Shown piece by piece: positions 1,312 through 64,000 of a DNA stretch of 64,000 nucleotides. The position numbers and the translations under genes are program-made. The stretch lies in NCBI GenBank assembly GCA_002189035.1, contig NEEC01000163.1:20522-84521 (forward strand), read 5' to 3'. The notes below the pieces were generated by a model. The model was not told where the DNA came from and searched no databases. It saw only the letters and a list, made by a program, of their open reading frames with translations. The stretch comes from Utricularia gibba. Lineage: Eukaryota > Streptophyta > Magnoliopsida > Lamiales > Lentibulariaceae. Every line of letters begins with the position of its first letter. Position 1 is the first letter of the stretch.

Positions 1312-1319
1312 CACGCGTG
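1312..1319. other. Conserved 8-bp palindrome CACGCGTG
   Basis: CACGCGTG is a perfect palindrome with two CpGs and an ACGCGT (MluI) core. It sits in the second conserved block, a few bases before the AT-rich segment, and is retained even in the degraded copy at 2485-2777. A few copies lose bases here, for example near 23778 and 56803 (AAACGCGTG). It could be a protein-binding site, but no function is demonstrated. Confidence 0.7.
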
Positions 1320-1324
1320 ATTCG

Positions 1325-1350
1325 TTAATATATGTCAAAATCTTGAATTT
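1325..1350. other. Conserved AT-rich segment within each monomer
   Basis: This 26-bp stretch has only four G or C bases (about 15%) in a monomer that averages about 50% GC. It runs from TTAATATATG to CTTGAATTT and is almost invariant, apart from TGTCAAAATC versus TGTAAAATC or TGTAAAAATC. Short AT-rich tracts of this kind often mark linker or bent DNA in satellites; that role is inferred here. Confidence 0.7.
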
Positions 1351-1383
1351 CGCGGCATTCTCATGCGTTTCTCGAGTGTGCTC

Positions 1384-1398
1384 GGGCCCTGGGAATTC
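1384..1398. other. Polymorphic GGGCCC / GAATTC block
   Basis: This copy has GGGCCC (1384-1389) followed by GAATTC (1393-1398). Other monomers have CCCCGGGACTTC or shortened forms such as CCCGGGAC, GGCCGGGAC or GGCCTGGGAC. The A/C change creates or destroys an EcoRI site. The block is a handy haplotype marker together with ATTAAGG/ACCAAGG just downstream. Confidence 0.85.
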
Positions 1399-2484: not shown

Positions 2485-2777
2485 GCCTTCGCCATTGACG
2501 CCACATCGTCCAAACCGTTTAGAGTCACGCGACACACAGCATACCGTTTCGAAGCTCATTCTGAGACGATCGTTTTTCGTGTTGGGAGTTCGCCCATCCG
2601 AGGAAAGTTCGAAGCTCGACGGATGGCCCTATATAAGCCTTGAATGGTGTCACAAAATGGCCTAGCCATTGGGGAACTCGTTTATGCGAGTTCAAACACG
2701 CGTGACGTTACACTTGAATTTCGCATTCTCATGCGTTTCTCCGTGTTCGAATTCCTACATTAAGGGGTGGCCTCGCA
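2485..2777 (+). repeat. Degraded 293-bp satellite monomer
   Basis: The left two thirds (to about 2674) are regular. From about 2675 to 2780 the copy reads as an ordered subsequence of a normal monomer. Many short pieces are missing, but the remaining pieces (ACTCGTTT, ATGCGA, ACACGCGTGA, CTTGAATTTCGC) stay in order with little substitution. A single deletion cannot explain this; several micro-deletions or a consensus fault can. Confidence 0.9.
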
Positions 2778-5700: not shown

Positions 5701-8700
5701 TCGAAGCTCGACGGATGGCCCTATATAAGCCTTGAATGGTGTCACAAAATGGCCTAGCCATTGGGGACGTTGCGACTCCTTTGCTCGTTTTTATGCGAAA
5801 ATTGTTCTCGGATTGCGAAACACGCGTGATTCGTTAATATATGTCAAAATCTTGAATTTCGCGGCATTCTCATGCGTTTCTCCGAGTGTGCTCGGGCCCT
5901 GGGAATTCCTACATTAAGGGGTGGCCTCGCGCAGCCTTCGCCATTGACGCCACATCGTCCAAACCGTTTAGAGTCACGCGACACACAGCATACCGTTTCG
6001 AAGCTCATTCCGAGACGGTCGTTTTTCGTGTTGGGAGCTTGCCCATCCGAGGAAAGTTCGAAGCTCGAAGGATGGCCTTATATTAGCCTTCAATGTGTCA
6101 CAAAATGGCTAGCCATTGGGGACGTTGGACTCGTTTGCTCGTTTTTATGCGAAAACTAATCTCGGCTTGCGAAACACGCGTGATTCGTTAATATATGTCA
6201 AAATCTTGAATTTCGCGGCATTCTCATGCGTTTCTCGGGTGTGCTCGGGCCCGGGGACTTCCTACACCAAGGGTGGCCTCGCGCAGCCTTCGCCATTGAC
6301 GCCACATCGTCCAAACCGTTTAGAGTCACGCGACACACAGCATACCGTTTCGAAGCTCATTCTGAGACGGTCGTTTTTCGTGTTGGAAGTTGCCCATCCG
6401 AGGAAAGTTCGAAGCTCGACGGATGGCCCTATATAAGCCTTGAATGGTGTCACAAAATGGCCTAGCCATTGGGGACGTTGGGACTCGTTTGCTCGTTTTT
6501 ATGCGAAAATTGTTCTCGGCTTGCGAAACACGCGTGATTCGTTAATATATGTCAAAATCTTGAATTTCGCGGCATTCTCATGCGTTTCTCCGAGTGTGCT
6601 CGGGCCCTGGGAATTCCTACATTAAGGGGTGGCCTCGCGCAGCCTTCGCCATTGACGCCACATCGTCCAAACCGTTTAGAGTCACGCGACACACAGCATA
6701 CCGTTTCGAAGCTCATTCTGAGACGATCGTTTTTCGTGTTGGGAGCGCCCATCCGAGGAAAGTTCGAAGCTCGACGGATGGCCCTATATAAGCCTTGAAT
6801 GGTGTCACAAAATGGCCTAGCCATTGGGGACGTTGCGACTCCTTTGCTCGTTTTTATGCGAAAATTGTTCTCGGATTGCGAAACACGCGTGATTCGTTAA
6901 TATATGTAAAATCTTGAATTTCGCGGCATTCTCATGCGTTTCTCGGTGTGCTCGGGCCTGGGACTTCCTACACCAAGGGGTGGCCTCGCGCAGCCTTCGC
7001 CATTGACGCCACATCGTCCAACCGTTTAGAGTCACGCGACACACAGCATACCGTTTCGAAGCTCATTCTGAGACGATCGTTTTTCGTGTTGGGAAATCGC
7101 CCATCCGAGGAAAGTTCGAAGCTCGACGGATGGCCCTATATAAGCCTTGAATGGTGTCACAAAATGGCCTAGCCATTGGGACGTTGGGATTCGTTTGCTC
7201 GTTTTTATGCGAAAACTAATCTCGGCTTGGGAAACACGCGTGATTCGTTAATATATGTAAAAATCTGAATTTCGCGGCATTCTCATGCGTTTCTCGGGTG
7301 TGCTCGGGCCCGGGACTTCCTACACCAAGGGGTGGCCTCGCGCAGCCTTCGCCATTGACGCCACATCGTCCAAACCGTTTAGAGTCACGCGACACACAGC
7401 ATACCGTTTCGAAGCTCATTCCGAGACGGTCGTTTTTCGTGTTGGAAGTTCGCCCATCCGAGGAAAGTTCGAAGCTCGACGGATGGCCCTATATAAGCCT
7501 TGAATGGTGTCACAAAATGGCCTAGCCATTGGGGACGTTGGGACTCGTTTGCTCGTTTTTATGCGAAAATTGTTCTCGGCTTGCGAAACACGCGTGATTC
7601 GTTAATATATGTCAAAATCTTGAATTTCGCGGCATTCTCATGCGTTTCTCCGAGTGTGCTCGGGCCCTGGGAATTCCTACATTAAGGGGTGGCCTCGCGC
7701 AGCCTTCGCCATTGACGCCACATCGTCCAAACCGTTTAGAGTCACGCGACACACAGCATACCGTTTCGAAGCTCATTCTAAGACGATCGTTTTTCGTGTT
7801 GGGAAATCGCCCATCCGAGGAAAGTTCGAAGCTCGACGGATGGCCCTATATAAGCCTTGAATGGTGTCACAAAATGGCCTAGCCATTGGGGACGTTGCGA
7901 CTCCTTTGCTCGTTTTTATGCGAAAATTGTTCTCGGATTGCGAAACACGCGTGATTCGTTAATATATGTAAAAAATCTTGAATTTCGCGGCATTCTCATG
8001 CGTTTCTCCGAGTGTGCTCGGGCCCTGGGAATTCCTACATTAAGGGGTGGCCTCGCGCAGCCTTCGCCATTGACGCCACATCGTCCAAACCGTTTAGAGT
8101 CACGCGACACACAGCATACCGTTTCGAAGCTCATTCCGAGACGGTCGTTTTTCGTGTTGGGAGTTGCCCATCCGAGGAAAGTTCGAAGCTCGAGGATGGC
8201 CTATATTAGCCTTGAATGGTGTCACAAAATGGTCTAGCCATTGGGGACGTTGCGACTCCTTTGCTCGTTTTTATGCGAAAATTATTCTCGGCTTGCGAAA
8301 CACGCGTGATTCGTTAATATATGTCAAAATCTTGAATTTCGCGGCATTCTCATGCGTTTCTCGGGTGTGCTCGGGCCCGGGACTTCCTACACCAAGGGGT
8401 GGCCTCGCGCAGCCTTCGCCATTGACGCCAATCGTCCAAACCGTTTAGAGTCACGCGACACACAGCATACCGTTTCGAAGCTCATTCGAGACGGTCGTTT
8501 TTCGTGTTGGGAGTTCGCCCATCCGAGGAAAGTTCGAAGCTCGACGGATGGCCTATATAAGCCTTGAATGGTGTCCAAAATGGTCTAGCCATTGGGGACA
8601 TCGCGACTCCTTTGCTCGTTTTTATGCGAAAATTTTCTCGGATTGCGAAACACGCGTGATTCGTTAATATATGTCAAAATCTTGAATTTCGCGGCATTCT

Positions 8701-11700
8701 CATGCGTTTCTCAGTGTGCTCGGGCCCTGGGAATTCCTACATTAAGGGGTGGCCTCGCGCAGCCTTCGCATTGACGCCACATCTTCCAAACCGTTTAGAG
8801 TCACGCACAAAGCATACGTTTCGAAGCTCATTCTGAGACGGTCGTTTTTTCGTGTTGGGAGTTGCCCATCCGAGGAAAGTTCGAAGCTCGAAGGATGGCC
8901 TATATAGCCTTGAATGGTTCACAAATGGTCTAGCCATTGGGGACTTGCGACTCCTTTGCTCGTTTTTATGCGAAAATAATCTCGGCTTGCGAAACACGCG
9001 TGATTCGTTAATATATGTCAAAATCTTGAATTTCGCGGCATTCTCATGCGTTTCTCCGAGTGTGCTCGGGCCCTGGGAATTCCTACACCAAGGGGTGGCC
9101 TCGCGCAGCCTTCGCCATTGACGCCACATCGTCCAAACCGTTTAGAGTCACGCGACACACAGCATACCGTTTCGAAGCTCATTCTGAGACGATCGTTTTT
9201 CGTGTTGGGAGTCGCCCATCCGAGGAAAGTTCGAAGCTCGACGGATGGCCCTATATAAGCCTTGAATGGTGTCACAAAATGGCCTAGCCATTGGGACGTT
9301 GGGACTCGTTTGCTCGTTTTTATGCGAAAATTGTTCTCGGCTTGCGAAACACGCGTGATTCGTTAATATATGTCAAAATCTTGAATTTCGCGGCATTCTC
9401 ATGCGTTTCTCCGAGTGTGCTCGGGCCCTGGGAATTCCTACATTAAGGGGTGGCCTCGCGCAGCCTTCGCCATTGACGCCACATCGTCCAAACCGTTTAG
9501 AGTCACGCGACACACAGCATACCGTTTCGAAGCTCATTCCGAGACGGTCGTTTTTCGTGTTGGAAGTTCGCCCATCCGAGGAAAGTTCGAAGCTCGACGG
9601 ATGGCCCTATATAAGCCTTGAATGGTGTCACAAAATGGCCTAGCCATTGGGGACGTTGGGACTCGTTTGCTCGTTTTTATGCGAAAATTGTTCTCGGCTT
9701 GCGAAACACGCGTGATTCGTTAATATATGTCAAAATCTTGAATTTCGCGGCATTCTCATGCGTTTCTCCGAGTGTGCTCGGGCCCTGGGAATTCCTACAT
9801 TAAGGGGTGGCCTCGCGCAGCCTTCGCCATTGACGCCACATCGTCCAAACCGTTTAGAGTCACGCGACACACAGCATACCGTTTCGAAGCTCATTCCGAG
9901 ACGGTCGTTTTTCGTGTTGGGAGTTGCCCATCCGAGGAAAGTTCGAAGCTCGAAGGATGGCCTTATATAGCCTTCAATGGTGTCAAAAATGGTCTAGCCA
10001 TTGGGGACATTGCGACTCCTTTGCTCGTTTTTATGCGAAAATTATTCTCGGCTTGCGAAACACGCGTGATTCGTTAATATATGTCAAATCTTGAATTTCG
10101 CGGCATTCTCATGCGTTTCTCCGAGTGTGCTCGGGCCCTGGGAATTCCTACACCAAGGGGTGGCCTCGCGCAGCCTTCGCCATTGACGCCACATCGTCCA
10201 AACCGTTTAGAGTCACGCGACACACAGCATACCGTTTCGAAGCTCATTCTGAGACGATCGTTTTTCGTGTTGGGAATCGCCCATCCGAGGAAAGTTCGAA
10301 GCTCGAACGGATGGCCCTATATAAGCCTTGAATGGTGTCACAAAATGGCCTAGCCATTGGGGACGTTGGGACTCGTTTGCTCGTTTTTATGCGAAAATTT
10401 TCTCGGCTTGCGAAACACGCGTGATTCGTTAATATATGTCAAAATCTTGAATTTCGCGGCATTCTCATGCGTTTCTCCGAGTGTGCTCGGGCCCTGGGAA
10501 TTCCTACATTAAGGGGTGGCCTCGCGCAGCCTTCGCCATTGACGCCACATCGTCCAAACCGTTTAGAGTCACGCGACACACAGCATACCGTTTCGAAGCT
10601 CATTCCGAGACGATCGTTTTTCGTGTTGGGAAGTTCGCCCATCCGAGGAAAGTTCGAAGCTCGACGGATGGCCCTATATAAGCCTTGAATGGTGTCACAA
10701 AATGGCCTAGCCATTGGGGACGTTGGGACTCGTTTGCTCGTTTTTATGCGAAAATTGTTCTCGGCTTGCGAAACACGCGTGATTCGTTAATATATGTCAA
10801 AATCTTGAATTTCGCGGCATTCTCATGCGTTTCTCCGAGTGTGCTCGGGCCCTGGGAATTCCTACATTAAGGGGTGGCCTCGCGCAGCCTTCGCCATTGA
10901 CGCCACATCGTCCAAACCGTTTAGAGTCACGCGACACACAGCATACCGTTTCGAAGCTCATTCCGAGACGGTCGTTTTTCGTGTTGGGAGCTTGCCCATC
11001 CGAGGAAAGTTCGAAGCTCGAAGGATGGCCTTATATAGCCTTCAATGGTGTCACAAAATGGTCTAGCCATTGGGGACGTTGCGACTCCTTTGCTCGTTTT
11101 TATGCGAAAATTATTCTCGGCTTGCGAAACACGCGTGATTCGTTAATATATGTCAAAATCTTGAATTTCGCGGCATTCTCATGCGTTTCTACGGGTGTGC
11201 TCGGGCCCCGGGACTTCCTACACCAAGGGGTGGCCTCGCGCAGCCTTCGCCATTGACGCCACATCGTCCAAACCGTTTAGAGTCACGCGACACACAGCAT
11301 ACCGTTTCGAAGCTCATTCTGAGACGATCGTTTTTCGTGTTGGAAGTTCGCCCATCCGAGGAAAGTTCGAAGCTCGAAGGATGGCCTTATATTAGCCTTG
11401 AATGGTGTCACAAAATGGTCTAGCCATTGGGGACGTTGCGACTCCTTTGCTCGTTTTTATGCGAAAATTTTTCTCGGCTTGCGAAACACGCGTGATTCGT
11501 TAATATATGTCAAAATCTTGAATTTCGCGGCATTCTCATGCGTTTCTGGGTGTGCTCGGGCCTGGGACTTCCTACACCAAGGGGTGGCCTCGCGCAGCCT
11601 TCGCCATTGACGCCACATCGTCCAAACCGTTTAGAGTCACGCGACACACAGCATACCGTTTCGAAGCTCATTCTGAGACGATCGTTTTTCGTGTTGGGAG

Positions 11701-14700
11701 TCGCCCATCCGAGGAAAGTTCGAAGCTCGAAGGATGGCCTTATATTAGCCTTGAATGGTGTCACAAAATGGTCTAGCCATTGGGGACATCGCGACTCCTT
11801 TGCTCGTTTTTATGCGAAAATTATTCTCGGATTGCGAAACACGCGTGATTCGTTAATATATGTCAAAATCTTGAATTTCGCGGCATTCTCATGCGTTTCT
11901 CCGAGTGTGCTCGGGCCCTTGGAATTCCTACATTAAGGGGTGGCCTCGCGCAGCCTTCGCCATTGACGCCACATCGTCCAAACCGTTTAGAGTCACGCGA
12001 CACACAGCATACCGTTTCGAAGCTCATTCTGAGACGATCGTTTTTCGTGTTGGGATCGCCCATCCGAGGAAAGTTCGAAGCTCGACGGATGGCCCTATAT
12101 AAGCCTTGAATGGTGTCACAAAATGGCCTAGCCATTGGGGACGTTGGGATTCGTTTGCTCGTTTTTATGCGAAAATAATCTCGGCTTGCGAAACACGCGT
12201 GATTCGTTAATATATGTCAAAATCTTGAATTTCGCGGCATTCTCATGCGTTTCTCCGAGTGTGCTCGGGCCCTGGGAATTCCTACATTAAGGGGTGGCCT
12301 CGCGCAGCCTTCGCAATTGACGCCACATCGTCCAAACCGTTTAGAGTCACGCACACAGCATACCGTTTCGAAGCTCATTCCGAGACGGTCGTTTTTCGTG
12401 TTGGAAGTTCGCCCATCCGAGGAAAGTTCGAAGCTCGACGGATGGCCCTATATAAGCCTTGAATGGTGTCACAAAATGGCCTAGCCATTGGGGACGTTGG
12501 GACTCCTTTGCTCGTTTTTATGCGAAAATTGTTCTCGGCTTGCGAAACACGCGTGATTCGTTAATATATGTCAAAATCTTGAATTTCGCGGCATTCTCAT
12601 GCGTTTCTCCGAGTGTGCTCGGGCCCTGGGAATTCCTACATTAAGGGGTGGCCTCGCGCAGCCTTCGCCATTGACGCCACATCGTCCAAACCGTTTAGAG
12701 TCACGCGACACACAGCATACCGTTTCGAAGCTCATTCCGAGACGGTCGTTTTTCGTGTTGGGAGCTTGCCCATCCGAGGAAAGTTCGAAGCTCGAAGGAT
12801 GGCCTTATATTAGCCTTCAATGTGTCACAAAATGGTCTAGCCATTGGGGACATTGCGACTCCTTTGCTCGTTTTTATGCGAAAATTATTCTCGGCTTGCG
12901 AAACACGCGTGATTCGTTAATATATGTCAAAATCTTGAATTTCGCGGCATTCTCATGCGTTTCTCGGGTGTGCTCGGGCCCGGGACTTCCTACACCAAAG
13001 GGGTGGCCTCGCGCAGCCTTCGCCATTGACGCCACATCGTCCAAACCGTTTAGAGTCACGCGACACACAGCATACCGTTTCGAAGCTCATTCTGAGACGA
13101 TCGTTTTTCGTGTTGGGAGTTCGCCCATCCGAGGAAAGTTCGAAGCTCGAAGGATGGCCTTATATTAGCCTTGAATGGTGTCACAAAATGGTCTAGCCAT
13201 TGGGGACGTTGCGACTCCTTTGCTCGTTTTTATGCGAAAATTTTTCTCGGATTGCGAAACACGCGTGATTCGTTAATATATGTCAAAATCTTGAATTTCG
13301 CGGCATTCTCATGCGTTTCTCGGTGTGCTCGGGCCTGGGAATTCCTACACCAAGGGGTGGCCTCGCGCAGCCTTCGCCATTGACGCCACATCGTCCAAAC
13401 CGTTTAGAGTCACGCGACACACAGCATACCGTTTCGAAGCTCATTCTGAGACGATCGTTTTTCGTGTTGGGAGTCGCCCATCCGAGGAAAGTTCGAAGCT
13501 CGAAGGATGGCCTTATATAGCCTTGAATGGTGTCACAAAATGGTCTAGCCATTGGGGACATTGCGACTCCTTTGCTCGTTTTTATGCGAAAATTATTCTC
13601 GGATTGCGAAACACGCGTGATTCGTTAATATATGTCAAAATCTTGAATTTCGCGGCATTCTCATGCGTTTCTCCGAGTGTGCTCGGGCCCTGGAATTCCT
13701 ACATTAAGGGGTGGCCTCGCGCAGCCTTCGCCATTGACGCCACATCGTCCAAACCGTTTAGAGTCACGCGACACACAGCATACCGTTTCGAAGCTCATTC
13801 TGAGACGATCGTTTTTCGTGTTGGGACGCCCATCCGAGGAAAGTTCGAAGCTCGACGGATGGCCCTATATAAGCCTTGAATGGTGTCACAAAATGGCCTA
13901 GCCATTGGGACGTTGCGACTCCTTTGCTCGTTTTTATGCGAAAATTTTCTCGGATTGCGAAACACGCGTGATTCGTTAATATATGTAAAAATCTGAATTT
14001 CGCGGCATTCTCATGCGTTTCTGGGTGTGCTCGGGCCGGGACTTCCTACACCAAGGGTGGCCTCGCGCAGCCTTCGCCATTGACGCCACATCGTCCAAAC
14101 CGTTTAGAGTCACGCGACACACAGCATACCGTTTCGAAGCTCATTCTGAGACGATCGTTTTTCGTGTTGGGAATCGCCCATCCGAGGAAAGTTCGAAGCT
14201 CGACGGATGGCCCTATATAAGCCTTGAATGGTGTCACAAAATGGCCTAGCCATTGGGGACGTTGGGACTCGTTTGCTCGTTTTTATGCGAAAATAATTCT
14301 CGGCTTGCGAAACACGCGTGATTCGTTAATATATGTAAAAATCTTGAATTTCGCGGCATTCTCATGCGTTTCTCGGGTGTGCTCGGGCCCGGGACTTCCT
14401 ACACCAAGGGGTGGCCTCGCGCAGCCTTCGCCATTGACGCCACATCGTCCAAACCGTTTAGAGTCACGCGACACACAGCATACCGTTTCGAAGCTCATTC
14501 TGAGACGATCGTTTTTCGTGTTGGAAGTTCGCCCATCCGAGGAAAGTTCGAAGCTCGACGGATGGCCCTATATAAGCCTTGAATGGTGTCACAAAATGGC
14601 CTAGCCATTGGGGACGTTGGACTCGTTTGCTCGTTTTTATGCGAAAATTGTTCTCGGCTTGCGAAACACGCGTGATTCGTTAATATATGTCAAAATCTTG

Positions 14701-17700
14701 AATTTCGCGGCATTCTCATGCGTTTCTCCGAGTGTGCTCGGGCCCTGGGAATTCCTACATTAAGGGGTGGCCTCGCGCAGCCTTCGCCATTGACGCACAT
14801 CGTCCAAACCGTTTAGAGTCACGCGACACACAGCATACCGTTTCGATGCTCATTCTGAGACGATCGTTTTTCGTGTTGGAGTCGCCCATCCGAGGAAAGT
14901 TCGAAGCTCGACGGATGGCCCTATATAGCCTTGAATGGTGTCCAAAATGGTCTAGCCATTGGGACAGCGACTCCTTTGCTCGTTTTTATGCGAAAATTAT
15001 TCTCGGATTGCGAAACACGCGTGATTCGTTAATATATGTCAAAATCTTGAATTTCGCGGCATTCTCATGCGTTTCTAGTGTGCTCGGGCCTGGGAATTCC
15101 TACATTAAGGGGTGGCCTCGCGCAGCCTTCGCCATTGACGCCACATCGTCCAAACCGTTTAGAGTCACGCGACACACAGCATACCGTTTCGAAGCTCATT
15201 CCGAGACGGTCGTTTTTCGTGTTGGGAGTTCGCCCATCCGAGGAAAGTTCGAAGCTCGACGGATGGCCTTATATTAGCCTTGAATGGTGTCCAAAATGGT
15301 CTAGCCATTGGGGACATCGCGACTCCTTTGCTCGTTTTTATGCGAAAATTATTCTCGGATTGCGAAACACGCGTGATTCGTTAATATATGTCAAAATCTT
15401 GAATTTCGCGGCATTCTCATGCGTTTCTCGAGTGTGCTCGGCCCTGGGAATTCCTACATTAAGGGTGGCCTCGCGCAGCCTTCGCCATTGACGCCACATC
15501 GTCCAAACCGTTTAGAGTCACGCGACACACAGCATACCGTTTCGAAGCTCATTCTGAGACGGTCGTTTTTTCGTGTTGGGAGTTGCCCATCCGAGGAAAG
15601 TTCGAAGCTCGAAGGATGGCCTATATAGCCTTGAATGGTGTCACAAAATGGTCTAGCCATTGGGGACGTTGCGACTCCTTTGCTCGTTTTTATGCGAAAA
15701 TGGCTTGCGAAACACGCGTGATTCGTTAATATATGTCAAAATCTTGAATTTCGCGGCATTCTCATGCGTTTCCGTGTGCTCGGGCCCTGGGAATTCCTAC
15801 ACCAAGGGTGGCCTCGCGCAGCCTTCGCCATTGACGCCACATCGTCCAAACCGTTTAGTCACGCGACACACCATACCGTTTCGAAGCTCATTCTGAGACG
15901 ATCGTTTTTGTGTTGGGATCGCCCATCCGAGGAAAGTTCGAAGCTCGACGGATGGCCCTATATAAGCCTTGAATGGTGTCACAAAATGGCCTAGCCATTG
16001 GGGACGTTGGGACTCGTTTGCTCGTTTTTATGCGAAAACTAATCTCGGCTTGCGAAACACGCGTGATTCGTTAATATATGTCAAAATCTTGAATTTCGCG
16101 GCATTCTCATGCGTTTCTCCGAGTGTGCTCGGGCCCTGGGAATTCCTACATTAAGGGGTGGCCTCGCGCAGCCTTCGCCATTGACGCCACATCGTCCAAA
16201 CCGTTTAGAGTCACGCGACACACAGCATACCGTTTCGAAGCTCATTCCGAGACGGTCGTTTTTCGTGTTGGAAGTTCCCATCCGAGAAAGTTCGAAGCTC
16301 GACGGATGGCCCTATATAAGCCTTGAATGGTGTCACAAAATGGCCTAGCCATTGGGGACGTTGGACTCGTTTGCTCGTTTTTATGCGAAAATTGTTCTCG
16401 GCTTGCGAAACACGCGTGATTCGTTAATATATGTCAAAATCTTGAATTTCGCGGCATTCTCATGCGTTTCTCCGAGTGTGCTCGGGCCCTGGGAATTCCT
16501 ACATTAAGGGGTGGCCTCGCGCAGCCTTCGCCATTGACGCCACATCGTCCAAACCGTTTAGAGTCACGCGACACACAGCATACCGTTTCGAAGCTCATTC
16601 CGAGACGGTCGTTTTTCGTGTTGGGAGCTTGCCCATCCGAGGAAAGTTCGAAGCTCGACGGATGGCCCTTATATAAGCCTTCAATGGTGTCACAAAATGG
16701 CCTAGCCATTGGGGACGTTGCGACTCCTTTGCTCGTTTTTATGCGAAAATTGTTCTCGGCTTGCGAAACACGCGTGATTCGTTAATATATGTCAAAATCT
16801 TGAATTTCGCGGCATTCTCATGCGTTTCTCGGTGTGCTCGGGCCCGGGACTTCCTACACCAAGGGGTGGCCTCGCGCAGCCTTCGCCATTGACGCCACAT
16901 CGTCCAAACCGTTTAGAGTCACGCGACACACAGCATACCGTTTCGAAGCTCATTCTGAGACGATCGTTTTTCGTGTTGGAGTTCGCCCATCCGAGGAAAG
17001 TTCGAAGCTCGAAGGATGGCCTTATATTAGCCTTGAATGGTTTCACAAAATGGTCTAGCCATTGGGGACGTTGCGACTCCTTTGCTCGTTTTTATGCGAA
17101 AATTTTTTCTCGGATTGCGAAACACGCGTGATTCGTTAATATATGTAAAATCTGAATTTCGCGGCATTCTCATGCGTTTCTATGGGTGTGCTCGGGCCTG
17201 GGACTTCCTACACCAAGGGGTGGCCTCGCGCAGCCTTCGCCATTGACGCCACATCGTCCAAACCGTTTAGAGTCACGCGACACACAGCATACCGTTTCGA
17301 AGCTCATTCTGAGACGATCGTTTTTCGTGTTGGGAGCTCGCCCATCCGAGGAAAGTTCGAAGCTCGAAGGATGGCCTATATTAGCCTTGAATGGTTTCAC
17401 AAAATGGTCTAGCCATTGGGGACGTTGCGACTCCTTTGCTCGTTTTTATGCGAAAATTATTCTCGGATTGCGAAACACGCGTGATTCGTTAATATATGTC
17501 AAAATCTTGAATTTCGCGGCATTCTCATGCGTTTCTCGAGTGTGCTCGGGCCCTGGAATTCCTACACCAAGGGGTGGCCTCGCGCAGCCTTCGCCATTGA
17601 CGCCACATCGTCCAAACCGTTTAGAGTCACGCGACACACAGCATACCGTTTCGAAGCTCATTCTGAGACGATCGTTTTTCGTGTTGGGAGTTCGCCCATC

Positions 17701-28803: not shown

Positions 28804-29122
28804 GCCTTCGCCATGACGCCACATCGTTTTTAGAGTTACCGTTTCGAAGCTCATTCTGAGACGATCGTTTTTCGTGTTGGGAGCCCATCCGAGGAAAGTT
28901 CGAAGCTCGACGGATGGCCCTATATAGCCTTGAATGGTGTCACAAAATGGCCTAGCCATTGGGGACGTTGCGACTCTTTGCTCGTTTTTATGCGAAAATT
29001 GTTCTCGGCTTGCGAAACACGCGTGATTCGTTAATATATCAAAATCTTGAATTTCGCGGCATTCTCATGCGTTTCTCGGGTGTGCTCGGGGGACTTCCTA
29101 CACCAAGGGGTGGCCTCGCGCA
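28804..29122 (+). repeat. Degraded 319-bp satellite monomer
   Basis: The losses fall in the normally invariant first block. Between ACATCGT and TTTAGAGT the CCAAACCG stretch is missing (with one extra T). Between AGAGT and TACCG about 16 bp (CACGCGACACACAGCA) are missing. The variable region is also shortened (GGGAGCCCATCC) and GCCATTGACG has become GCCATGACG. The neighbouring copies are close to normal length. Confidence 0.9.
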
Positions 29123-50100: not shown

Positions 50101-53100
50101 TAATATATGTCAAAATCTTGAATTTCGCGGCATTCTCATGCGTTTCTCGGGTGTGCTCGGGCCCTGGGAATTCCTACACCAAGGGGTGGCCTCGCGCAGC
50201 CTTCGCCATTGACGCCACATCGTCCAAACCGTTTAGAGTCACGCGACACACAGCATACCGTTTCGAAGCTCATTCTGAGACGATCGTTTTTCGTGTTGGG
50301 AGTTCGCCCATCCGAGGAAAGTTCGAAGCTCGACGGATGGCCCTATATAAGCCTTGAATGGTGTCACAAAATGGTCTAGCCATTGGGACATTGCGACTCC
50401 TTTGCTCGTTTTTATGCGAAAATTATTCTCGGCTTGCGAAACACGCGTGATTCGTTAATATATGTCAAAATCTTGAATTTCGCGGCATTCTCATGCGTTT
50501 CTCCGAGTGTGCTCGGGCCCGGAATTCCTACATTAAGGGGTGGCCTCGCGCAGCCTTCGCCATTGACGCCACATCGTCCAAACCGTTTAGAGTCACGCGA
50601 CACACAGCATACCGTTTCGAAGCTCATTCTGAGACGATCGTTTTTCGTGTTGGGAGTTCGCCCATCCGAGGAAAGTTCGAAGCTCGACGGATGGCCCTAT
50701 ATAAGCCTTGAATGGTGTCACAAAATGGCCTAGCCATTGGGGACGTTGCGACTCCTTTGCTCGTTTTTATGCGAAAATTTCTCGGCTTGCGAAACACGCG
50801 TGATTCGTTAATATATGTCAAAATCTTGAATTTCGCGGCATTCTCATGCGTTTCTCGGTGTGCTCGGGCCCTGGGACTTCCTACACCAAGGGGTGGCCTC
50901 GCGCAGCCTTCGCCATTGACGCCACATCGTCCAAAACCGTTTAGAGTCACGCGACACACAGCATACCGTTTCGAAGCTCATTCTGAGACGGTCGTTTTTC
51001 GTGTTGGGAGTTGCCCATCCGAGGAAAGTTCGAAGCTCGAAGGATGGCCCTATATAAGCCTTGAATGGTGTCACAAAATGGCCTAGCCATTGGGGACGTT
51101 GCGACTCGTTTGCTCGTTTTTATGCGAAAATTTTCTCGGATTGCGAAACACGCGTGATTCGTTAATATATGTCAAAATCTTGAATTTCGCGGCATTCTCA
51201 TGCGTTTCTCCGAGTGTGCTCGGGCCCTGGGAATTCCTACATTAAGGGGTGGCCTCGCGCAGCCTTCGCCATTGACGCCACATCGTCCAAACCGTTTAGA
51301 GTCACGCGACACACAGCATACCGTTTCGAAGCTCATTCTGAGACGGTCGTTTTTCGTGTTGGAGTTCGCCATCCGAGGAAAGTTCGAAGCTCGAAGGATG
51401 GCCCTATATAAGCCTTCAATGGTGTCACAAAATGGCTAGCCATTGGGGACGTTGCGACTCGTTTGCTCGTTTTTATGCGAAAATTATTCTCGGCTTGCGA
51501 AACACGCGTGATTCGTTAATATATGTCAAAATCTTGAATTTCGCGGCATTCTCATGCGTTTCTCCGAGTGTGCTCGGGCCCTGGGAATTCCTACATTAAG
51601 GGGTGGCCTCGCGCAGCCTTCGCCATTGACGCCACATCGTCCAAACCGTTTAGAGTCACGCGACACACAGCATACCGTTTCGAAGCTCATTCTGAGACGA
51701 TCGTTTTTCGTGTTGGGAGTTCGCCCATCCGAGGAAAGTTCGAAGCTCGACGGATGGCCTATATAAGCCTTGAATGGTGTCACAAAATGGCCTAGCCATT
51801 GGGGACGTTGGGACTCCTTTGCTCGTTTTTATGCGAAAATTGTTCTCGGCTTGCGAAACACGCGTGATTCGTTAATATATGTCAAAATCTTGAATTTCGC
51901 GGCATTCTCATGCGTTTCTCCGAGTGTGCTCGGGCCCTGGGAATTCCTACATTAAGGGGTGGCCTCGCGCAGCCTTCGCCATTGACGCCACATCGTCCAA
52001 ACCGTTTAGAGTCACGCGACACACAGCATACCGTTTCGAAGCTCATTCTGAGACGGTCGTTTTTCGTGTTGGGAGTCGCCCATCCGAGGAAAGTTCGAAG
52101 CTCGACGGATGGCCCTATATAAGCCTTGAATGGTGTCACAAAATGGCCTAGCCATTGGGGACGTTGCGACTCCTTTGCTCGTTTTTATGCGAAAATTTTT
52201 CTCGGCTTGCGAAACACGCGTGATTCGTTAATATATGTCAAAATCTTGAATTTCGCGGCATTCTCATGCGTTTCTCGGTGTGCTCGGGCCCTGGGACTTC
52301 CTACACCAAGGGGTGGCCTCGCGCAGCCTTCGCCATTGACGCCACATCGTCCAAACCGTTTAGAGTCACGCGACACACAGCATACCGTTTCGAAGCTCAT
52401 TCTGAGACGGTCGTTTTTCGTGTTGGGAGTTTGCCCATCCGAGGAAAGTTCGAAGCTCGAAGGATGGCCCTATATAAGCCTTCAATGGTGTCACAAAATG
52501 GTCTAGCCATTGGGGACGTTGCGACTCCTTTGCTCGTTTTTATGCGAAAATTTTCTCGGCTTGCGAAACACGCGTGATTCGTTAATATATGTCAAAATCT
52601 TGAATTTCGCGGCATTCTCATGCGTTTCTCCGAGTGTGCTCGGGCCCTGGGAATTCCTACATTAAGGGGTGGCCTCGCGCAGCCTTCGCCATTGACGCCA
52701 CATCGTCCAAACCGTTTAGAGTCACGCGACACACAGCATACCGTTTCGAAGCTCATTCTGAGACGGTCGTTTTTCGTGTTGGGTTGCCCATCCGAGGAAA
52801 GTTCGAAGCTCGAAGGATGGCCTTATATAGCCTTCAATGGTGTCACAAAATGGCTAGCCATTGGGGACGTTGCGACTCCTTTGCTCGTTTTTATGCGAAA
52901 ATTATTCTCGGCTTGCGAAACACGCGTGATTCGTTAATATATGTCAAAATCTTGAATTTCGCGGCATTCTCATGCGTTTCTCCGTGTGCTCGGCCCTGGG
53001 AATTCCTACACCAAGGGGTGGCCTCGCGCAGCCTTCGCCATTGACGCCACATCGTCCAAACCGTTTAGAGTCACGCGACACACAGCATACCGTTTCGAAG

Positions 53101-56100
53101 CTCATTCCGAGACGATCGTTTTTCGTGTTGGGAGTTCGCCCATCCGAGGAAAGTTCGAAGCTCGAAGGATGGCCCTATATTAGCCTTGAATGGTGTCACA
53201 AAATGGTTAGCCATTGGGGACGTTGCGACTCGTTTGCTCGTTTTTATGCGAAAATTATTCTCGGCTTGCGAAACACGCGTGATTCGTTAATATATGTCAA
53301 AATCTTGAATTTCGCGGCATTCTCATGCGTTTCTCCGAGTGTGCTCGGGCCCTGGGAATTCCTACATTAGGGGTGGCCTCGCGCAGCCTTCGCCATTGAC
53401 GCCACATCGTCCAAACCGTTTAGAGTCACGCGACACACAGCATACCGTTTCGAAGCTCATTCTGAGACGATCGTTTTTCGTGTTGGGAGTCGCCCATCCG
53501 AGGAAAGTTCGAAGCTCGACGGATGGCCTATATAAGCCTTGAATGGTGTCACAAAATGGCCTAGCCATTGGGGACGTTGCGACTCCTTTGCTCGTTTTTA
53601 TGCGAAAATTTTCTCGGCTTGCGAAACACGCGTGATTCGTTAATATATGTCAAAATCTTGAATTTCGCGGCATTCTCATGCGTTTCTCCGGGTGTGCTCG
53701 GGCCGGGAATTCCTACACCAAGGGGTGGCCTCGCGCAGCCTTCGCCATTGACGCCACATCGTCCAAACCGTTTAGAGTCACGCGACACACAGCATACCGT
53801 TTCGAAGCTCATTCTGAGACGATCGTTTTTCGTGTTGGGAGTCGCCCATCCGAGGAAAGTTCGAAGCTCGACGGATGGCCCTATATAAGCCTTGAATGGT
53901 GTCACAAAATGGCCTAGCCATTGGGGACGTTGCGACTCCTTTGCTCGTTTTTATGCGAAAATTGTTCTCGGCTTGCGAAACACGCGTGATTCGTTAATAT
54001 ATGTCAAAATCTTGAATTTCGCGGCATTCTCATGCGTTTCTCCGAGTGTGCTCGGGCCCTGGGAATTCCTACACCAAGGGGTGGCCTCGCGCAGCCTTCG
54101 CCATTGACGCCACATCGTCCAAACCGTTTAGAGTCACGCGACACACAGCATACCGTTTCGAAGCTCATTCTGAGACGGTCGTTTTTCGTGTTGGGAGTTG
54201 CCCATCCGAGGAAAGTTCGAAGCTCGAAGGATGGCCTTATATAGCCTTCAATGGTGTCACAAAATGGCTAGCCATTGGGGACGTTGCGACTCCTTTGCTC
54301 GTTTTTATGCGAAAATTATTCTCGGCTTGCGAAACACGCGTGATTCGTTAATATATGTCAAAATCTTGAATTTCGCGGCATTCTCATGCGTTTCTCGAGT
54401 GTGCTCGGGCCTGGGAATTCCTACACCAAGGGGTGGCCTCGCGCAGCCTTCGCCATTGACGCCACATCGTCCAAACCGTTTAGAGTCACGCGACACACAG
54501 CATACCGTTTCGAAGCTCATTCTGAGACGATCGTTTTTCGTGTTGGGAGTCGCCCATCCGAGGAAAGTTCGAAGCTCGACGGATGGCCCTATATAAGCCT
54601 TGAATGGTGTCACAAAATGGCTAGCCATTGGGGACGTTGGGACTCGTTTTGCTCGTTTTTATGCGAAAATAATTCTCGGCTTGCGAAACACGCGTGATTC
54701 GTTAATATATGTCAAAATCTTGAATTTCGCGGCATTCTCATGCGTTTCTCGAGTGTGCTCGGGCCCTGGGACTTCCTACACCAAGGGGTGGCCTCGCGCA
54801 GCCTTCGCCATTGACGCCACATCGTCCAAACGTTTAGAGTCACGCGACACACAGCATACCGTTTCGAAGCTCATTCTGAGACGGTCGTTTTTCGTGTTGG
54901 GAGTTCGCCATCCGAGGAAAGTTCGAAGCTCGAAGGATGGCCCTATATAAGCCTTGAATGGTGTCACAAAATGGTCTAGCCATTGGGGACATTGCGACTC
55001 CTTTGCTCGTTTTTATGCGAAAATTATTCTCGGCTTGCGAAACACGCGTGATTCGTTAATATATGTCAAAATCTTGAATTTCGCGGCATTCTCATGCGTT
55101 TCTCCGAGTGTGCTCGGGCCCGGGAATTCCTACATTAAGGGGTGGCCTCGCGCAGCCTTCGCCATTGACGCCACATCGTCCAAACCGTTTAGAGTCACGC
55201 GACACACAGCATACCGTTTCGAAGCTCATTCCGAGACGGTCGTTTTTCGTGTTGGGAGTTCGCCCATCCGAGGAAAGTTCGAAGCTCGACGGATGGCCCT
55301 ATATAAGCCTTGAATGGTGTCACAAAATGGCCTAGCCATTGGGGACGTTGGGACTCCTTTGCTCGTTTTTATGCGAAAATAATTCTCGGCTTGCGAAACA
55401 CGCGTGATTCGTTAATATATGTCAAAATCTTGAATTTCGCGGCATTCTCATGCGTTTCTCGGTGTGCTCGGGCCCTGGGACTTCCTACACCAAGGGGTGG
55501 CCTCGCGCAGCCTTCGCCATTGACGCCACATCAAAAACCGTTTAGAGTCACGCGACACACAGCATACCGTTTCGAAGCTCATTCTGAGACGGTCGTTTTT
55601 CGTGTTGGGTTCGCCCATCCGCAAAGTTCGAAGCTCGGATGGCCCTATATAAGCCTTGAATGGTGTCACAAAATGGCCTAGCCATTGGGGACGTTGCGAC
55701 TCCTTTGCTCGTTTTTATGCGAAAATTATTCTCGGCTTGCGAAACACGCGTGATTCGTTAATATATGTCAAAATCTTGAATTTCGGGCATTCTCATGCGT
55801 TTCTCCGGTGTGCTCGGGCCCTGGGAATTCCTACATTAAGGGGTGGCCTCGCGCAGCCTTCGCCATTGACGCCACATCGTCCAAACCGTTTAGAGTCACG
55901 CGACACACAGCATACCGTTTCGAAGCTCATTCTGAGACGGTCGTTTTTCGTGTTGGGAGTTGCCCATCCGAGGAAAGTTCGAAGCTCGAAGGATGGCCTT
56001 ATATAGCCTTCAATGGTGTCACAAATGGTCTAGCCATTGGGGACGTTGCGACTCCTTTGCTCGTTTTTATGCGAAAATTATTCTCGGCTTGCGAAACACG

Positions 56101-59100
56101 CGTGATTCGTTAATATATGTCAAAATCTTGAATTTCGCGGCATTCTCATGCGTTTCTCGGGTGTGCTCGGGCCCTGGGAATTCCTACACCAAGGGGTGGC
56201 CTCGCGCAGCCTTCGCCATTGACGCCACATCGTCCAAACCGTTTAGAGTCACGCGACACACAGCATACCGTTTCGAAGCTCATTCTGAGACGATCGTTTT
56301 TCGTGTTGGGAGTCGCCCATCCGAGGAAAGTTCGAAGCTCGACGGATGGCCCTATATAAGCCTTGAATGGTGTCACAAAATGGCCTAGCCATTGGGGACG
56401 TTGGGACTCGTTTGCTCGTTTTTATGCGAAAATAATCTCGGCTTGCGAAACACGCGTGATTCGTTAATATATGTCAAAATCTTGAATTTCGCGGCATTCT
56501 CATGCGTTTCTCGGGTGTGCTCGGGCCCGGGACTTCCTACACCAAGGGGTGGCCTCGCGCAGCCTTCGCCATTGACGCCACATCGTCCAAACCGTTTAGA
56601 GTCACGCGACACACAGCATACCGTTTCGAAGCTCATTCTGAGACGATCGTTTTTCGTGTTGGGAGTCGCCCATCCGAGGAAAGTTCGAAGCTCGACGGAT
56701 GGCCTATATTAGCCTTGAATGGTGTCACAAAATGGTCTAGCCATTGGGGACGTTGGACTCCTTTGCTCGTTTTTATGCGAAAATTATTCTCGGCTTGCGA
56801 AACGCGTGATTCGTTAATATATGTCAAAATCTTGAATTTCGCGGCATTCTCATGCGTTTCTACGGGTGTGCTCGGGCCGGGACTTCCTACACCAAGGGGT
56901 GGCCTCGCGCAGCCTTCGCCATTGACGCCACATCGTCCAAACCGTTTAGAGTCACGCGACACACAGCATACCGTTTCGAAGCTCATTCTGAGACGATCGT
57001 TTTTCGTGTTGGGAGTTCGCCCATCCGAAAAGTTCGAAGCTCGACGGATGGCCTATATTAGCCTTGAATGGTGTCACAAAATGGCTAGCCATTGGGGACG
57101 TTGCGACTCCTTTGCTCGTTTTTATGCGAAAATTATTCTCGGATTGCGAAACACGCGTGATTCGTTAATATATGTCAAAAATCTTGAATTTCGCGGCATT
57201 CTCATGCGTTTCTCCGAGTGTGCTCGGGCCGGGAATTCCTACACCAAGGGGTGGCCTCGCGCAGCCTTCGCCATTGACGCCACATCGTCCAAACCGTTTA
57301 GAGTCACGCGACACACAGCATACCGTTTCGAAGCTCATTCTGAGACGATCGTTTTTCGTGTTGGTCGCCCATCCGAGGAAAGTTCGAAGCTCGAAGGATG
57401 GCCCTATATAGCCTTGAATGGTGTCACAAAATGGCCTAGCCATTGGGGACGTTGGGACTCCGTTTGCTCGTTTTTATGCGAAAATTATTCTCGGCTTGCG
57501 AAACACGCGTGATTCGTTAATATATGTCAAAATCTTGAATTTCGCGGCATTCTCATGCGTTTCTCGGGTGTGCTCGGGCCCGGGAATTCCTACAAAGGGG
57601 TGGCCTCGCGCAGCCTTCGCCATTGACGCCACATCGTCCAACCGTTTAGAGTCACGCGACACACAGCATACCGTTTCGAAGCTCATTCTGAGACGGTCGT
57701 TTTTCGTGTTGGGAGTTGCCCATCCGAGGAAAGTTCGAAGCTCGACGGATGGCCCTATATAGCCTTGAATGGTGTCACAAATGGCTAGCCATTGGGGACG
57801 TTGCGACTCCTTTGCTCGTTTTTATGCGAAAATTATTCTCGGCTTGCGAAACACGCGTGATTCGTTAATATATGTCAAAATCTTGAATTTCGCGGCATTC
57901 TCATGCGTTTCTCGGAGTGTGCTCGGGCCCTGGGAATTCCTACACCAAGGGGTGGCCTCGCGCAGCCTTCGCCATTGACGCCACATCGTCCAAACCGTTT
58001 AGAGTCACGCGACACACAGCATACCGTTTCGAAGCTCATTCTGAGACGATCGTTTTTCGTGTTGGGAGTTCGCCCATCCGAGGAAAGTTCGAAGCTCGAC
58101 GGATGGCCCTATATAAGCCTTGAATGGTGTCACAAAATGGTCTAGCCATTGGGGACGCGACTCCTTTGCTCGTTTTTATGCGAAAATTTTCTCGGCTTGC
58201 GAAACACGCGTGATTCGTTAATATATGTCAAAATCTTGAATTTCGCGGCATTCTCATGCGTTTCTAGTGTGCTCGGGCCCTGGGAATTCCTACACCAAGG
58301 GGTGGCCTCGCGCAGCCTTCGCCATTGACGCCACATCGTCCAAACCGTTTAGAGTCACGCGACACACAGCATACCGTTTCGAAGCTCATTCTGAGACGGT
58401 CGTTTTTCGTGTTGGGAGTTCGCCCATCCGAGGAAAGTTCGAAGCTCGACGGGATGGCCCTATATAAGCCTTGAATGGTGTCACAAAATGGCCTAGCCAT
58501 TGGGGACGTTGGGACTCGTTTGCTCGTTTTTATGCGAAAATATCTCGGCTTGCGAAACACGCGTGATTCGTTAATATATGTCAAAATCTTGAATTTCGCG
58601 GCATTCTCATGCGTTTCTCTGTGCTCGGGCCCTGGGACTTCCTACACCAAGGGGTGGCCTCGCGCAGCCTTCGCCATTGACGCCACGTCCAAACCGTTTA
58701 GAGTCACGCGACACACAGCATACCGTTTCGAAGCTCATTCTGAGACGGTCGTTTTTCGTGTTGGGAGCTTGCCCATCCGAGGAAAGTTCGAAGCTCGAGG
58801 ATGGCCCTATAGCCTTGAATGGTGTCAAAATGGCTAGCCATTGGGGACGTTGGACTCGTTTGCTCGTTTTTATGCGAAAATTTTCTCGGATTGCGAAACA
58901 CGCGTGATTCGTTAATATATGTCAAAATCTTGAATTTCGCGGCATTCTCATGCGTTTCTCCGAGTGTGCTCGGGCCCTGGGAATTCCTACATTAAGGGGT
59001 GGCCTCGCGCAGCCTTCGCCATTGACGCCACATCGTCCAAACCGTTTAGAGTCACGCGACACACAGCATACCGTTTCGAAGCTCATTCTGAGACGGTCGT

Positions 59101-59365
59101 TTTTCGTGTTGGGAGTTGCCCATCCGAGGAAAGTTCGAAGCTCGAAGGATGGCCCTATATAGCCTTGAATGGTGTCACAAAATGGTCTAGCCATTGGGGA
59201 CATTGCGACTCCTTTGCTCGTTTTTATGCGAAAATTATTCTCGGCTTGCGAAACACGCGTGATTCGTTAATATATGTCAAAATCTTGAATTTCGCGGCAT
59301 TCTCATGCGTTTCTCGGGTGTGCTCGGGCCCTGGGACTTCCTACATTAAGGGGTGGCCTCGCGCA
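29123..59365 (+). repeat. Middle-right sub-array: 86 satellite monomers
   Basis: Eighty-six contiguous copies averaging 351.7 bp. Within it, 43923-45628 holds five consecutive short copies (336-348 bp, mean 341). By contrast, 48780-55509 holds nineteen well-preserved copies (349-357 bp, mean 354.2). The GAATTC-with-ACCAAGG haplotype is frequent here, including consecutive runs upstream of 53738, 54094 and 54446, and of 57264, 57613, 57965 and 58315. Confidence 0.96.
43923..45628 (+). repeat. Cluster of five shortened monomers
   Basis: Consecutive copies measure 339, 348, 345, 338 and 336 bp. Missing bases are scattered at several sites per copy. Examples are TTGTGTTGGAGCGCCC near 44701, ATTGCGATTGCGACCGTG near 45176, and GGGAGAGGAAAG near 45390, where the GTTCGCCCATCC stretch is absent. 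The copies immediately to the left (43214, 43570) are 356 and 353 bp. Confidence 0.85.
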
Positions 59366-59677
59366 GCCTTCGCCATTGACGCCACATCGTCCAAACCGTT
59401 TAGAGTCACGCGACACAGCATACCGTTTCGAAGCTCATTCTGAGACGATCGTTTTTCGTGTTGGGAGTTCGCCCATCCGAGGAAAGTTCGAAGCTCGACG
59501 GATGGCCTATATAGCCTTGAATGGTGTCACAAAATGGTAGCCATTGGGGACGTTGCGACTCCTTTGCTCGTTTTTATGCGAAAATTGCGAAACACGCGTG
59601 ATTCGTTAATATATGTCAAAATCTTGAATTTCGCGGCATTCTCATGCGCTCGGGGGAACACAAGGGGTGGCCTCGCA
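59366..59677 (+). repeat. Degraded 312-bp satellite monomer
   Basis: The first half is nearly normal. Around 59584 the copy passes from GAAAATT straight into GCGAAACACG, losing the usual ATTCTCGGCTT stretch. Around 59646 it passes from CATGCG into CTCGGGGGAACACAAGG, omitting most of the TTTCTCCGAGTGTG and CCCTGGGAATTCCT pieces. The surviving words keep their order, as in the degraded copy at 2485-2777. Confidence 0.9.
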
Positions 59678-62600
59678 GCCTTCGCCATTGACGCCACATC
59701 GTCCAAACCGTTTAGAGTCACGCGACACACAGCATACCGTTTCGAAGCTCATTCTGAGACGGTCGTTTTTCGTGTTGGGAGTTCGCCCATCCGAGGAAAG
59801 TTCGAAGCTCGACGGATGGCCCTATATAAGCCTTGAATGGTGTCACAAAATGGCCTAGCCATTGGGGACGTTGGGACCTTTTGCTCGTTTTTATGCGAAA
59901 ATTCTCGGCTTGCGAAACACGCGTGATTCGTTAATATATGTCAAAATCTTGAATTTCGCGGCATTCTCATGCGTTTCTCGGTGTGCTCGGGCCCTGGGAA
60001 TTCCTACAAGGGGTGGCCTCGCGCAGCCTTCGCCATTGACGCCACATCGTCCAAAACCGTTTAGAGTCACGACACACAGCATACCGTTTCGAAGCTCATT
60101 CTGAGACGGTCGTTTTTCGTGTTGGGAGTTGCCCATCCGAGGAAAGTTCGAAGCTCGAAGGATGGCCCTATATAAGCCTTGAATGGTGTCACAAAATGGT
60201 CTAGCCATTGGGGACGTTGCGACTCCTTTGCTCGTTTTTATGCGAAAATATTCTCGGCTTGCGAAACACGCGTGATTCGTTAATATATGTCAAAATCTTG
60301 AATTTCGCGGCATTCTCATGCGTTTCTACGGTGTGCTCGGGCCCTGGGACTTCCTACACCAAGGGGTGGCCTCGCGCAGCCTTCGCCATTGACGCCACAT
60401 CGTCCAAACCGTTTAGAGTCACGCGACACACAGCATACCGTTTCGAAGCTCATTCTGAGACGATCGTTTTTCGTGTTGGGAGTTCGCCCATCCGAGGAAA
60501 GTTCGAAGCTCGACGGATGGCCCTATATAAGCCTTGAATGGTGTCACAAAATGGTCTAGCCATTGGGGACATTGCGACTCCTTTGCTCGTTTTTATGCGA
60601 AAATTATTCTCGGATTGCGAAACACGCGTGATTCGTTAATATATGTCAAAATCTTGAATTTCGCGGCATTCTCATGCGTTTCTCCGAGTGCTCGGGCCCT
60701 GGGAATTCCTACATTAAGGGGTGGCCTCGCGCAGCCTTCGCCATTGACGCCACATCGTCCAAACCGTTTAGAGTCACGCGACACACAGCATACCGTTTCG
60801 AAGCTCATTCTGAGACGGTCGTTTTTCGTGTTGGGAGTTCGCCCATCCGAGGAAAGTTCGAAGCTCGACGGATGGCCTATATAGCCTTGAATGGTGTCAC
60901 AAAATGGCCTAGCCATTGGGGACGTTGCGACTCGTTTGCTCGTTTTTATGCGAAAATAATCTCGGCTTGCGAAACACGCGTGATTCGTTAATATATGTCA
61001 AAATCTTGAATTTCGCGGCATTCTCATGCGTTTCTCGTGTGCTCGGGCCCTGGGAATTCCTACACCAGGGGTGGCCTCGCGCAGCCTTCGCCATTGACGC
61101 CACATCGTCCAAAACGTTTAGAGTCACGACACACAGCATACCGTTTCGAAGCTCATTCTGAGACGGTCGTTTTTCGTGTTGGAGTTGCCCATCCGAGAAA
61201 GTTCGAAGCTCGGATGGCCCTATATAAGCCTTGAATGGTGTCACAAAATGGCCTAGCCATTGGGGACGTTGGGACTCGTTTGCTCGTTTTTATGCGAAAA
61301 TTATTCTCGGCTTGCGAAACACGCGTGATTCGTTAATATATGTCAAAATCTTGAATTTCGCGGCATTCTCATGCGTTTCTCCGAGTGTGCTCGGGCCCTG
61401 GGAATTCCTACATTAGGGGTGGCCTCGCGCAGCCTTCGCCATTGACGCCACATCGTCCAAACCGTTTAGAGTCACGCGACACACAGCATACCGTTTCGAA
61501 GCTCATTCTGAGACGATCGTTTTTCGTGTTGGGAGTTCGCCCATCCGAGGAAAGTTCGAAGCTCGAAGGATGGCCTATATTAGCCTTGAATGGTGTCACA
61601 AAATGGTCTAGCCATTGGGGACATTGCGACTCCTTTGCTCGTTTTTATGCGAAAATTATTCTCGGCTTGCGAAACACGCGTGATTCGTTAATATATGTCA
61701 AAATCTTGAATTTCGCGGCATTCTCATGCGTTTCTCGGGTGTGCTCGGGCCCTGGGAATTCCTACACCAAGGGGTGGCCTCGCGCAGCCTTCGCCATTGA
61801 CGCCACATCGTCCAAACCGTTTAGAGTCACGCGACACACAGCATACCGTTTCGAAGCTCATTCTGAGACGATCGTTTTTCGTGTTGGGAGTCGCCCATCC
61901 GAGGAAAGTTCGAAGCTCGAAGGGATGCCTATATTAGCCTTGAATGGTTTCACAAATGGTCTAGCCATTGGGGACGTTGCGACTCCTTTGCTCGTTTTTA
62001 TGCGAAAATTTTCTCGGATTGCGAAACACGCGTGATTCGTTAATATATGTCAAAATCTTGAATTTCGCGCATTCTCATGCGTTTCTAGGGTGTGCTCGGG
62101 CCTGGGACTTCCTACACCAAGGGGTGGCCTCGCGCAGCCTTCGCCATTGACGCCACATCGTCCAAACCGTTTAGAGTCACGCGACACACAGCATACCGTT
62201 TCGAAGCTCATTCGAGACGGTCGTTTTTCGTGTTGGGAGCCCATCCGAGGAAAGTTCGAAGCTCGACGGATGGCCCTATATAGCCTTGAATGGTGTCACA
62301 AAATGGCCTAGCCATTGGGGACGTTGGGACTCCTTTGCTCGTTTTTATGCGAAAACTAATCTCGGCTTGCGAAACACGCGTGATTCGTTAATATATGTCA
62401 AAATCTTGAATTTCGCGGCATTCTCATGCGTTTCTCGGTGTGCTCGGGCCCTGGGACTTCCTACACCAAGGGGTGGCCTCGCGCAGCCTTCGCCATTGAC
62501 GCCACATCGTCCAAACCGTTTAGAGTCACGCGACACACAGCATACCGTTTCGAAGCTCATTCCGAGACGGTCGTTTTTTGTGTTGGGAGCTTGCCCATCC

Positions 62601-63899
62601 GAGGAAAGTTCGAAGCTCGAAGGATGGCCCTATATAAGCCTTCAATGGTGTCACAAATGGCCTAGCCATTGGGGACGTTGGACTCCTTTGCTCGTTTTTA
62701 TGCGAAAATTTTCTCGGCTTGCGAAACACGCGTGATTCGTTAATATATGTCAAAATCTTGAATTTCGCGGCATTCTCATGCGTTTCTACGGGTGTGCTCG
62801 GGCCCGGGACTTCCTACACCAAGGGGTGGCCTCGCGCAGCCTTCGCCATTGACGCCACATCGTCCAAACCGTTTAGAGTCACGCGACACACAGCATACCG
62901 TTTCGAAGCTCATTCTGAGACGATCGTTTTTCGTGTTGGGAGTTCGCCCATCCGAGGAAAGTTCGAAGCTCGACGGATGGCCCTATATAAGCCTTGAATG
63001 GTGTCACAAAATGGTCTAGCCATTGGGGACGTTGCGACTCCTTTGCTCGTTTTTATGCGAAAATTATTCTCGGATTGCGAAACACGCGTGATTCGTTAAT
63101 ATATGTCAAAATCTTGAATTTCGCGGCATTCTCATGCGTTTCTCCGAGTGTGCTCGGGCCCTGGAATTCCTACATTAAGGGGTGGCCTCGCGCAGCCTTC
63201 GCCATTGACGCCACATCGTCCAAACCGTTTAGAGTCACGCGACACACAGCATACCGTTTCGAAGCTCATTCCGAGACGTCGTTTTTCGTGTTGGGAGTTC
63301 CCCATCCGAGGAAAGTTCGAAGCTCGACGGATGGCCCTATATAAGCCTTGAATGGTGTCACAAAATGGCCTAGCCATTGGGGACGTTGCGACTCCTTTGC
63401 TCGTTTTTATGCGAAAATTTCTCGGCTTGCGAAACACGCGTGATTCGTTAATATATGTCAAAATCTTGAATTTCGCGGCATTCTCATGCGTTTCTCGGTG
63501 TGCTCGGGCCCTGGGACTTCCTACACCAAGGGGTGGCCTCGCGCAGCCTTCGCCATTGACGCCACATCGTCCAAACCGTTTAGAGTCACGCGACACACAG
63601 CATACCGTTTCGAAGCTCATTCCGAGACGGTCGTTTTTCGTGTTGGGAGCTTGCCCATCCGAGGAAAGTTCGAAGCTCGAGGATGGCCTATATAAGCCTT
63701 GAATGGTGTCACAAAATGGCCTAGCCATTGGGGACGTTGGGACTCCTTTGCTCGTTTTTATGCGAAAATTGTTCTCGGCTTGCGAAACACGCGTGATTCG
63801 TTAATATATGTCAAAATCTTGAATTTCGCGGCATTCTCATGCGTTTCTCCGAGTGTGCTCGGGCCCTGGAATTCCTACATTAAGGGGTGGCCTCGCGCA
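59678..63899 (+). repeat. Right sub-array: twelve satellite monomers
   Basis: Twelve copies of 348-356 bp (mean 351.8). They mix GAATTC/ATTAAGG, GACTTC/ACCAAGG and recombinant haplotypes. The copy at 61787 carries the rare GGTTTCAC variant, also seen only near 17 kb and 23.7 kb. No sign of an array boundary appears. Confidence 0.95.
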
Positions 63900-64000
63900 G
63901 CCTTCGCCATTGACGCCACATCGTCCAAACCGTTTAGAGTCACGCGACACACAGCATACCGTTTCGAAGCTCATTCTGAGACGGTCGTTTTTCGTGTTGG
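63900..64000 (+). repeat. Partial satellite monomer at the right edge
   Basis: The first 101 bp of a monomer, ending in TTTTTCGTGTTGG. It has the TCTGAGACGGTCG variant. It is cut by the window edge, so the array extends further right. Confidence 0.95.

Follow-up and report, generated by a model that had tools for sequence, protein, structure and literature searches.

The window, a 64,000-nt stretch spanning positions 20,522-84,521 of the 84,521-bp contig C74 in a Utricularia gibba genome of 100.09 Mb in 516 contigs, is occupied from end to end (1..64000, + strand) by a head-to-tail satellite array with a unit of about 357 bp; Tandem Repeats Finder and wrap-around alignment identify 182 full copies. 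The open frames in the window are chance frames inside the satellite, and an Rfam search of its first 4 kb returned no match. The satellite runs all through C74 where read, and it fills or borders contigs C382, C385, C402 and C410; in C402, a 2.63-Mb contig, the array lies at the start. No higher-order repeat was found in C74, in contrast to part of C410, where positions 20001-35000 hold a divergent satellite subfamily with a higher-order repeat of five units, about 1.78 kb long, and a mismatch between successive units as low as 0.07%; outside this block, C410 is ordinary array. Elsewhere, the chloroplast rbcL frame is intact on C516. Besides the chloroplast contig, C2 (near 3.01 Mb and 3.54 Mb), C515 (near 58 kb), C451 and C375 contain broken rbcL-like pieces; these are plastid DNA moved into nuclear contigs and a probable mitochondrial contig. 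A literature search found no direct report of the satellite or of the exact loss artefact described here.

The copies in the window are missing many single bases. There are 1118 deletion columns versus 43 insertion columns, a ratio of about 26 to 1, and the heaviest losses fall at unit columns 105, 145, 151, 177, 197, 226-229 and 306-307. For example, GGCTAGCC, derived from GG(C/T)CTAGCC by loss at column 177 (28/204 in C74), occurs at 26 places in the window, including 2948..2955 (+). The TCT(CCGA/ACGG)GTG site, at columns 306-309, yields TCTCGGTG in 20 copies, including 5527..5534 (+), and a further loss product, TCTCGGGTG, in 27 copies. The original prediction had proposed that such losses fall at the very sites where copies differ, and its motifs are real: the loss forms at TCT..GTG and ACA..AAGG, together with GGCTAG and GTTGGAC, were all found in the window. 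GACGTCG, which is GACG(A/G)TCG without its polymorphic base (column 85), is present at precisely the four predicted positions, one of them at 26772..26778 (+). The CATTC(T/C)GAG loss, CATTCGAG (column 78), occurs at 8483, 43287 and 62209 (62209..62216, +), where two of the three predicted coordinates were off by 1-2 nt. Three copies, beginning at 2485, 28804 and 59366, are shredded more severely, with 38 to 64 scattered columns missing and the remaining letters still in unit order; about 64 columns are absent in scattered pieces from the copy at 2485..2777 (+) and 45 from that at 59366..59677 (+), the other being at 28804-29115. Such shredding fits a consensus that broke down, not one clean deletion.

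To account for ambiguous placement, each isolated single-base loss was sorted by every column able to explain it, given the alleles in other copies. A polymorphic column fits 244 of the 355 classifiable losses in the window (69%), where random deletion would place 8.9% and run-length-weighted deletion 8.5%. In particular, 237 losses can be placed either at a polymorphic column or at an invariant one next to it, 7 at a polymorphic column only, and 111 at an invariant column only. The corresponding shares under random deletion are 7.3%, 1.6% and 90%, and they are approximately the same under run-length weighting; 10 further isolated losses had no explaining column. The enrichment of gaps at segregating columns, which the original prediction had put forward as its check, thus shows losses that are far from independent of polymorphism. 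The claim stands as an enrichment, 69% versus 9%, but nearly all of the excess in the window lies at columns where one allele equals an adjacent base. Other contigs behave similarly, and they also have some excess of losses explained by polymorphic columns alone.

An ordinary contraction of homopolymers in long reads, independent of polymorphism, would be compatible with these losses to the extent that they shorten runs of two to four bases, and losses do occur in invariant runs (46/4464, or 1.0%, for two-base runs and 4.9% for four-base runs). The invariant stretches are mostly but not completely intact, with single bases losing 0.36%. Moreover, the two main example sites of the original prediction, columns 78 and 85, have loss rates of about 2% (4/206 and 4/205), close to that of the invariant two-base runs. 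Run-weighted contraction nevertheless leaves the 69% at polymorphic columns unexplained, and it carries no left/right polarity, unlike the losses.

This polarity becomes visible when well-separated polymorphic columns are classed according to which neighbouring base matches an allele: left only (78, 85, 136, 203 and 329), right (177, 269 and 306), both (145, 151 and 197) or neither (158, 193 and 236). In the C74 window, left-neighbour columns lost 19/865 bases (2.2%) and right-neighbour columns 71/469 (15.1%; p=1.7e-18), with 85/501 (17.0%) lost at both-neighbour columns and 3/499 (0.6%) at no-neighbour columns; columns 78 and 85 are accordingly low-rate sites here, and column 177 is a heavily hit one. 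The left/right difference appears in each 10-kb block of C74, except for the short last piece. As the rule was first noticed in C74, it is post hoc for that contig; contigs C402, C410 and C382 served as its test. C410 from 1 to 10 kb is the mirror of C74, with losses of 40/136 (29%) on the left and 1/79 (1.3%) on the right (p=1.9e-8), and this mirror polarity holds over the first 10.6 kb. C382 has right-type losses. Read in the orientation of the satellite, C402 is right-type up to about 28 kb and left-type in everything read past about 31 kb; because the satellite is reversed in C402, a flip of the whole contig had been forecast, and the forecast held only in part, as the side changes within the contig. 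Overall, one-sided, neighbour-matched loss with a changing side was found in blocks of C74, C410, C402 and C382, as well as in the simulation described below. The side of loss changes at C402:29000-31000 and C410:10000-12000, which suggests that these are joins of separately built, oppositely oriented consensus pieces.

In C410 from 20 to 30 kb, the same runs are mostly intact (2% left, 1% right), a further observation against homopolymer contraction, which is very improbable as the general cause; run contraction probably explains much of the residual loss at invariant columns. The higher-order block of C410 (20-35 kb) has 38 substitutions/kb and 4.3 gap columns/kb, compared to 16-19 gap columns/kb in C74. 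The repeats of this block are either nearly the same or plainly different, and mixed reads would therefore be expected to agree. Unique nuclear DNA looks clean as well, as judged from one gene family: about eleven single-exon acyltransferase matches cover at least 380 of 434 model positions in one stop-free frame, where the loss rate of C74 would have placed some 20 losses into each frame.

The losses do not follow descent. Across 2,533 pairs of C74 blocks, the number of gap openings per kb shows no dependence on the number of mismatches (slope 0.04, r 0.07, intercept 16.7). In C410 at 20-25 kb, 23 gap openings but just 2 mismatches separate a near-identical pair of 2.8 kb. Where blocks of the window are duplicated, substitutions agree with a kappa (corrected for chance) of 0.66 and losses with one of 0.14; at held-out sites in these blocks, agreement is 0.35-0.52 for substitutions versus 0.06-0.26 for losses, although some loss units are partly shared (kappa 0.39 at column 177 and 0.71 at column 287). 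These measurements bear on the second explanation offered by the original prediction, in which the repair of mismatched heteroduplexes between copies makes real deletions where copies differ. Such repair would account for the enrichment at polymorphic columns, and the duplicated blocks indicate that array copies do recombine. It is contradicted by losses that are not passed on to duplicated copies, by a polarity that changes between contigs and within C402 and C410, and by the no-neighbour sites, which form mismatches equally well yet remain almost immune (3/499); the roughly 26-fold excess of deletions over insertions also counts against it. Heteroduplex repair is consequently rejected as an extremely improbable source of the losses.

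A minority of the loss forms could be genuine inherited length alleles, a proposal that is compatible with an artefact for the rest and to which somewhat less than an even chance is assigned. The candidates are CCCGGGAC at column 324 and perhaps CGCGCATTC at column 287. At column 324, within CCC(T/C)GGG, about 15% of bases are lost in every block, polarity notwithstanding, and mostly together with the C allele at column 329; CGCGCATTC is nearly limited to C74, with 8/177 in the window and 0-2 in other places, and it is the unit whose kappa reaches 0.71 in duplicated blocks. Weighing against this proposal, the copies are few and the same reads could have served both places. The losses shared near 23.8 and 62.1 kb, which had been taken as a sign of real indels, carry little weight, as their blocks are at background divergence (38 mismatches/2216 bp) and do not lie within a close duplicate. 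It is tentatively suggested, with slightly less confidence still, that a small residue at columns 287 and 324 consists of real inherited single-base deletion alleles hidden among artefacts, and that left/right polarity could act as a read-free marker of mixed-copy consensus and of changes of orientation within assembled contigs.

The missing bases are, with high confidence, consensus errors of a noisy-long-read assembly that averaged different satellite copies. The losses are enriched at polymorphic columns, obey the neighbour rule, show a polarity that switches side, are not inherited and can be reproduced by simulation. The mixing of reads from different copies is the likely origin, and the consensus program was presumably of a DAG type (pbdagcon or similar). 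In pbdagcon, mismatches are converted to indels and gaps are moved to one side. Under the proposed mechanism, reads of differing but similar satellite copies would be piled onto one backbone. At a site with two competing alleles, one of which is identical to the following base, the mismatch would be split by the aligner-normaliser into an insertion and a deletion, and the deletion would slide along the run to one side, away from the insertion. The best read-graph path could then pick neither allele, dropping one base; at sites without an equal neighbour, no such path would exist and one allele would be retained. The side of loss would be set by the orientation in which each consensus piece was built, which would make it constant over C74 and different between and inside other contigs. 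The first explanation of the original prediction, a consensus built from reads of different copies, is thereby strongly supported and refined to one-sided gap placement. Its plain form, that disagreeing bases were dropped, is incomplete, since the highly variable columns 203, 236 and 329 are almost never dropped. A model in which every polymorphic column loses its base was rejected for the same behaviour at columns 158, 203, 236 and 329.

The mechanism was simulated with two alleles mixed 50:50 and PacBio-like errors: after alignment of the reads to a backbone, each mismatch was converted to an insertion and a deletion, gaps were moved right or left, and the best read-graph path was taken. With gaps moved right, bases were dropped in 27% of runs at right-neighbour, 17% at both-neighbour, 0.6% at left-only and 0% at no-neighbour sites; with gaps moved left, the outcome was a mirror image (12.5% at left-only and 2.2% at right-only sites), and pure reads yielded drops of about 0%. 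Simulating multi-column variants gives GAGTTGCC, TCTCGGGTG, TCTCGAGTG and AAATAATCTC, which are among the loss products observed, and the low loss at ACA(CC/TT)AAGG agrees with its prediction. The common loss forms GAGTCGCC and TCTCGGTG were not produced by the two-haplotype simulation, perhaps because more than two copies are mixed in reality. A pair-HMM likelihood consensus, according to which the maximum-likelihood template is the shorter one, was also simulated and rejected; it drops far fewer bases than observed, and the explanation therefore needs a graph- or column-type consensus.

These results call for caution with the satellite arrays of noisy-long-read assemblies, which are easily misread as evidence of mismatch-repair deletion, frame breaks or indel haplotypes. 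Losses of about 17 columns per kb in such arrays are mostly made by software. Further, the left/right polarity provides a test for a mixed-copy repeat consensus from the assembled sequence itself, and it marks probable changes of consensus orientation in C402 near 29-31 kb and in C410 near 10.6 kb.

The array resembles the centromeric and pericentromeric satellite arrays of plants in the head-to-tail arrangement of its approximately 357-bp unit and in its extent, with arrays of tens of kb to more than 100 kb in several contigs; the likeness is one of sequence layout. As a template-plus-DAG consensus, pbdagcon is used in long-read assemblers, and a modified pbdagcon serves for contig consensus in Canu (PMC5411767). 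The published PacBio assembly of Utricularia gibba was made with HGAP at 88x coverage and comprises 581 contigs (PMC5793159). Compared to pbdagcon-type systems, C74 differs in that its polarity is constant over 84 kb, longer than a typical read, and both seed-read correction and contig consensus are possible stages for the losses. The resemblance is that a simulated consensus similar to the DAG consensus of mixed or collapsed repeats from PacBio CLR reads (pbdagcon in HGAP, and Canu) reproduces the losses of C74.
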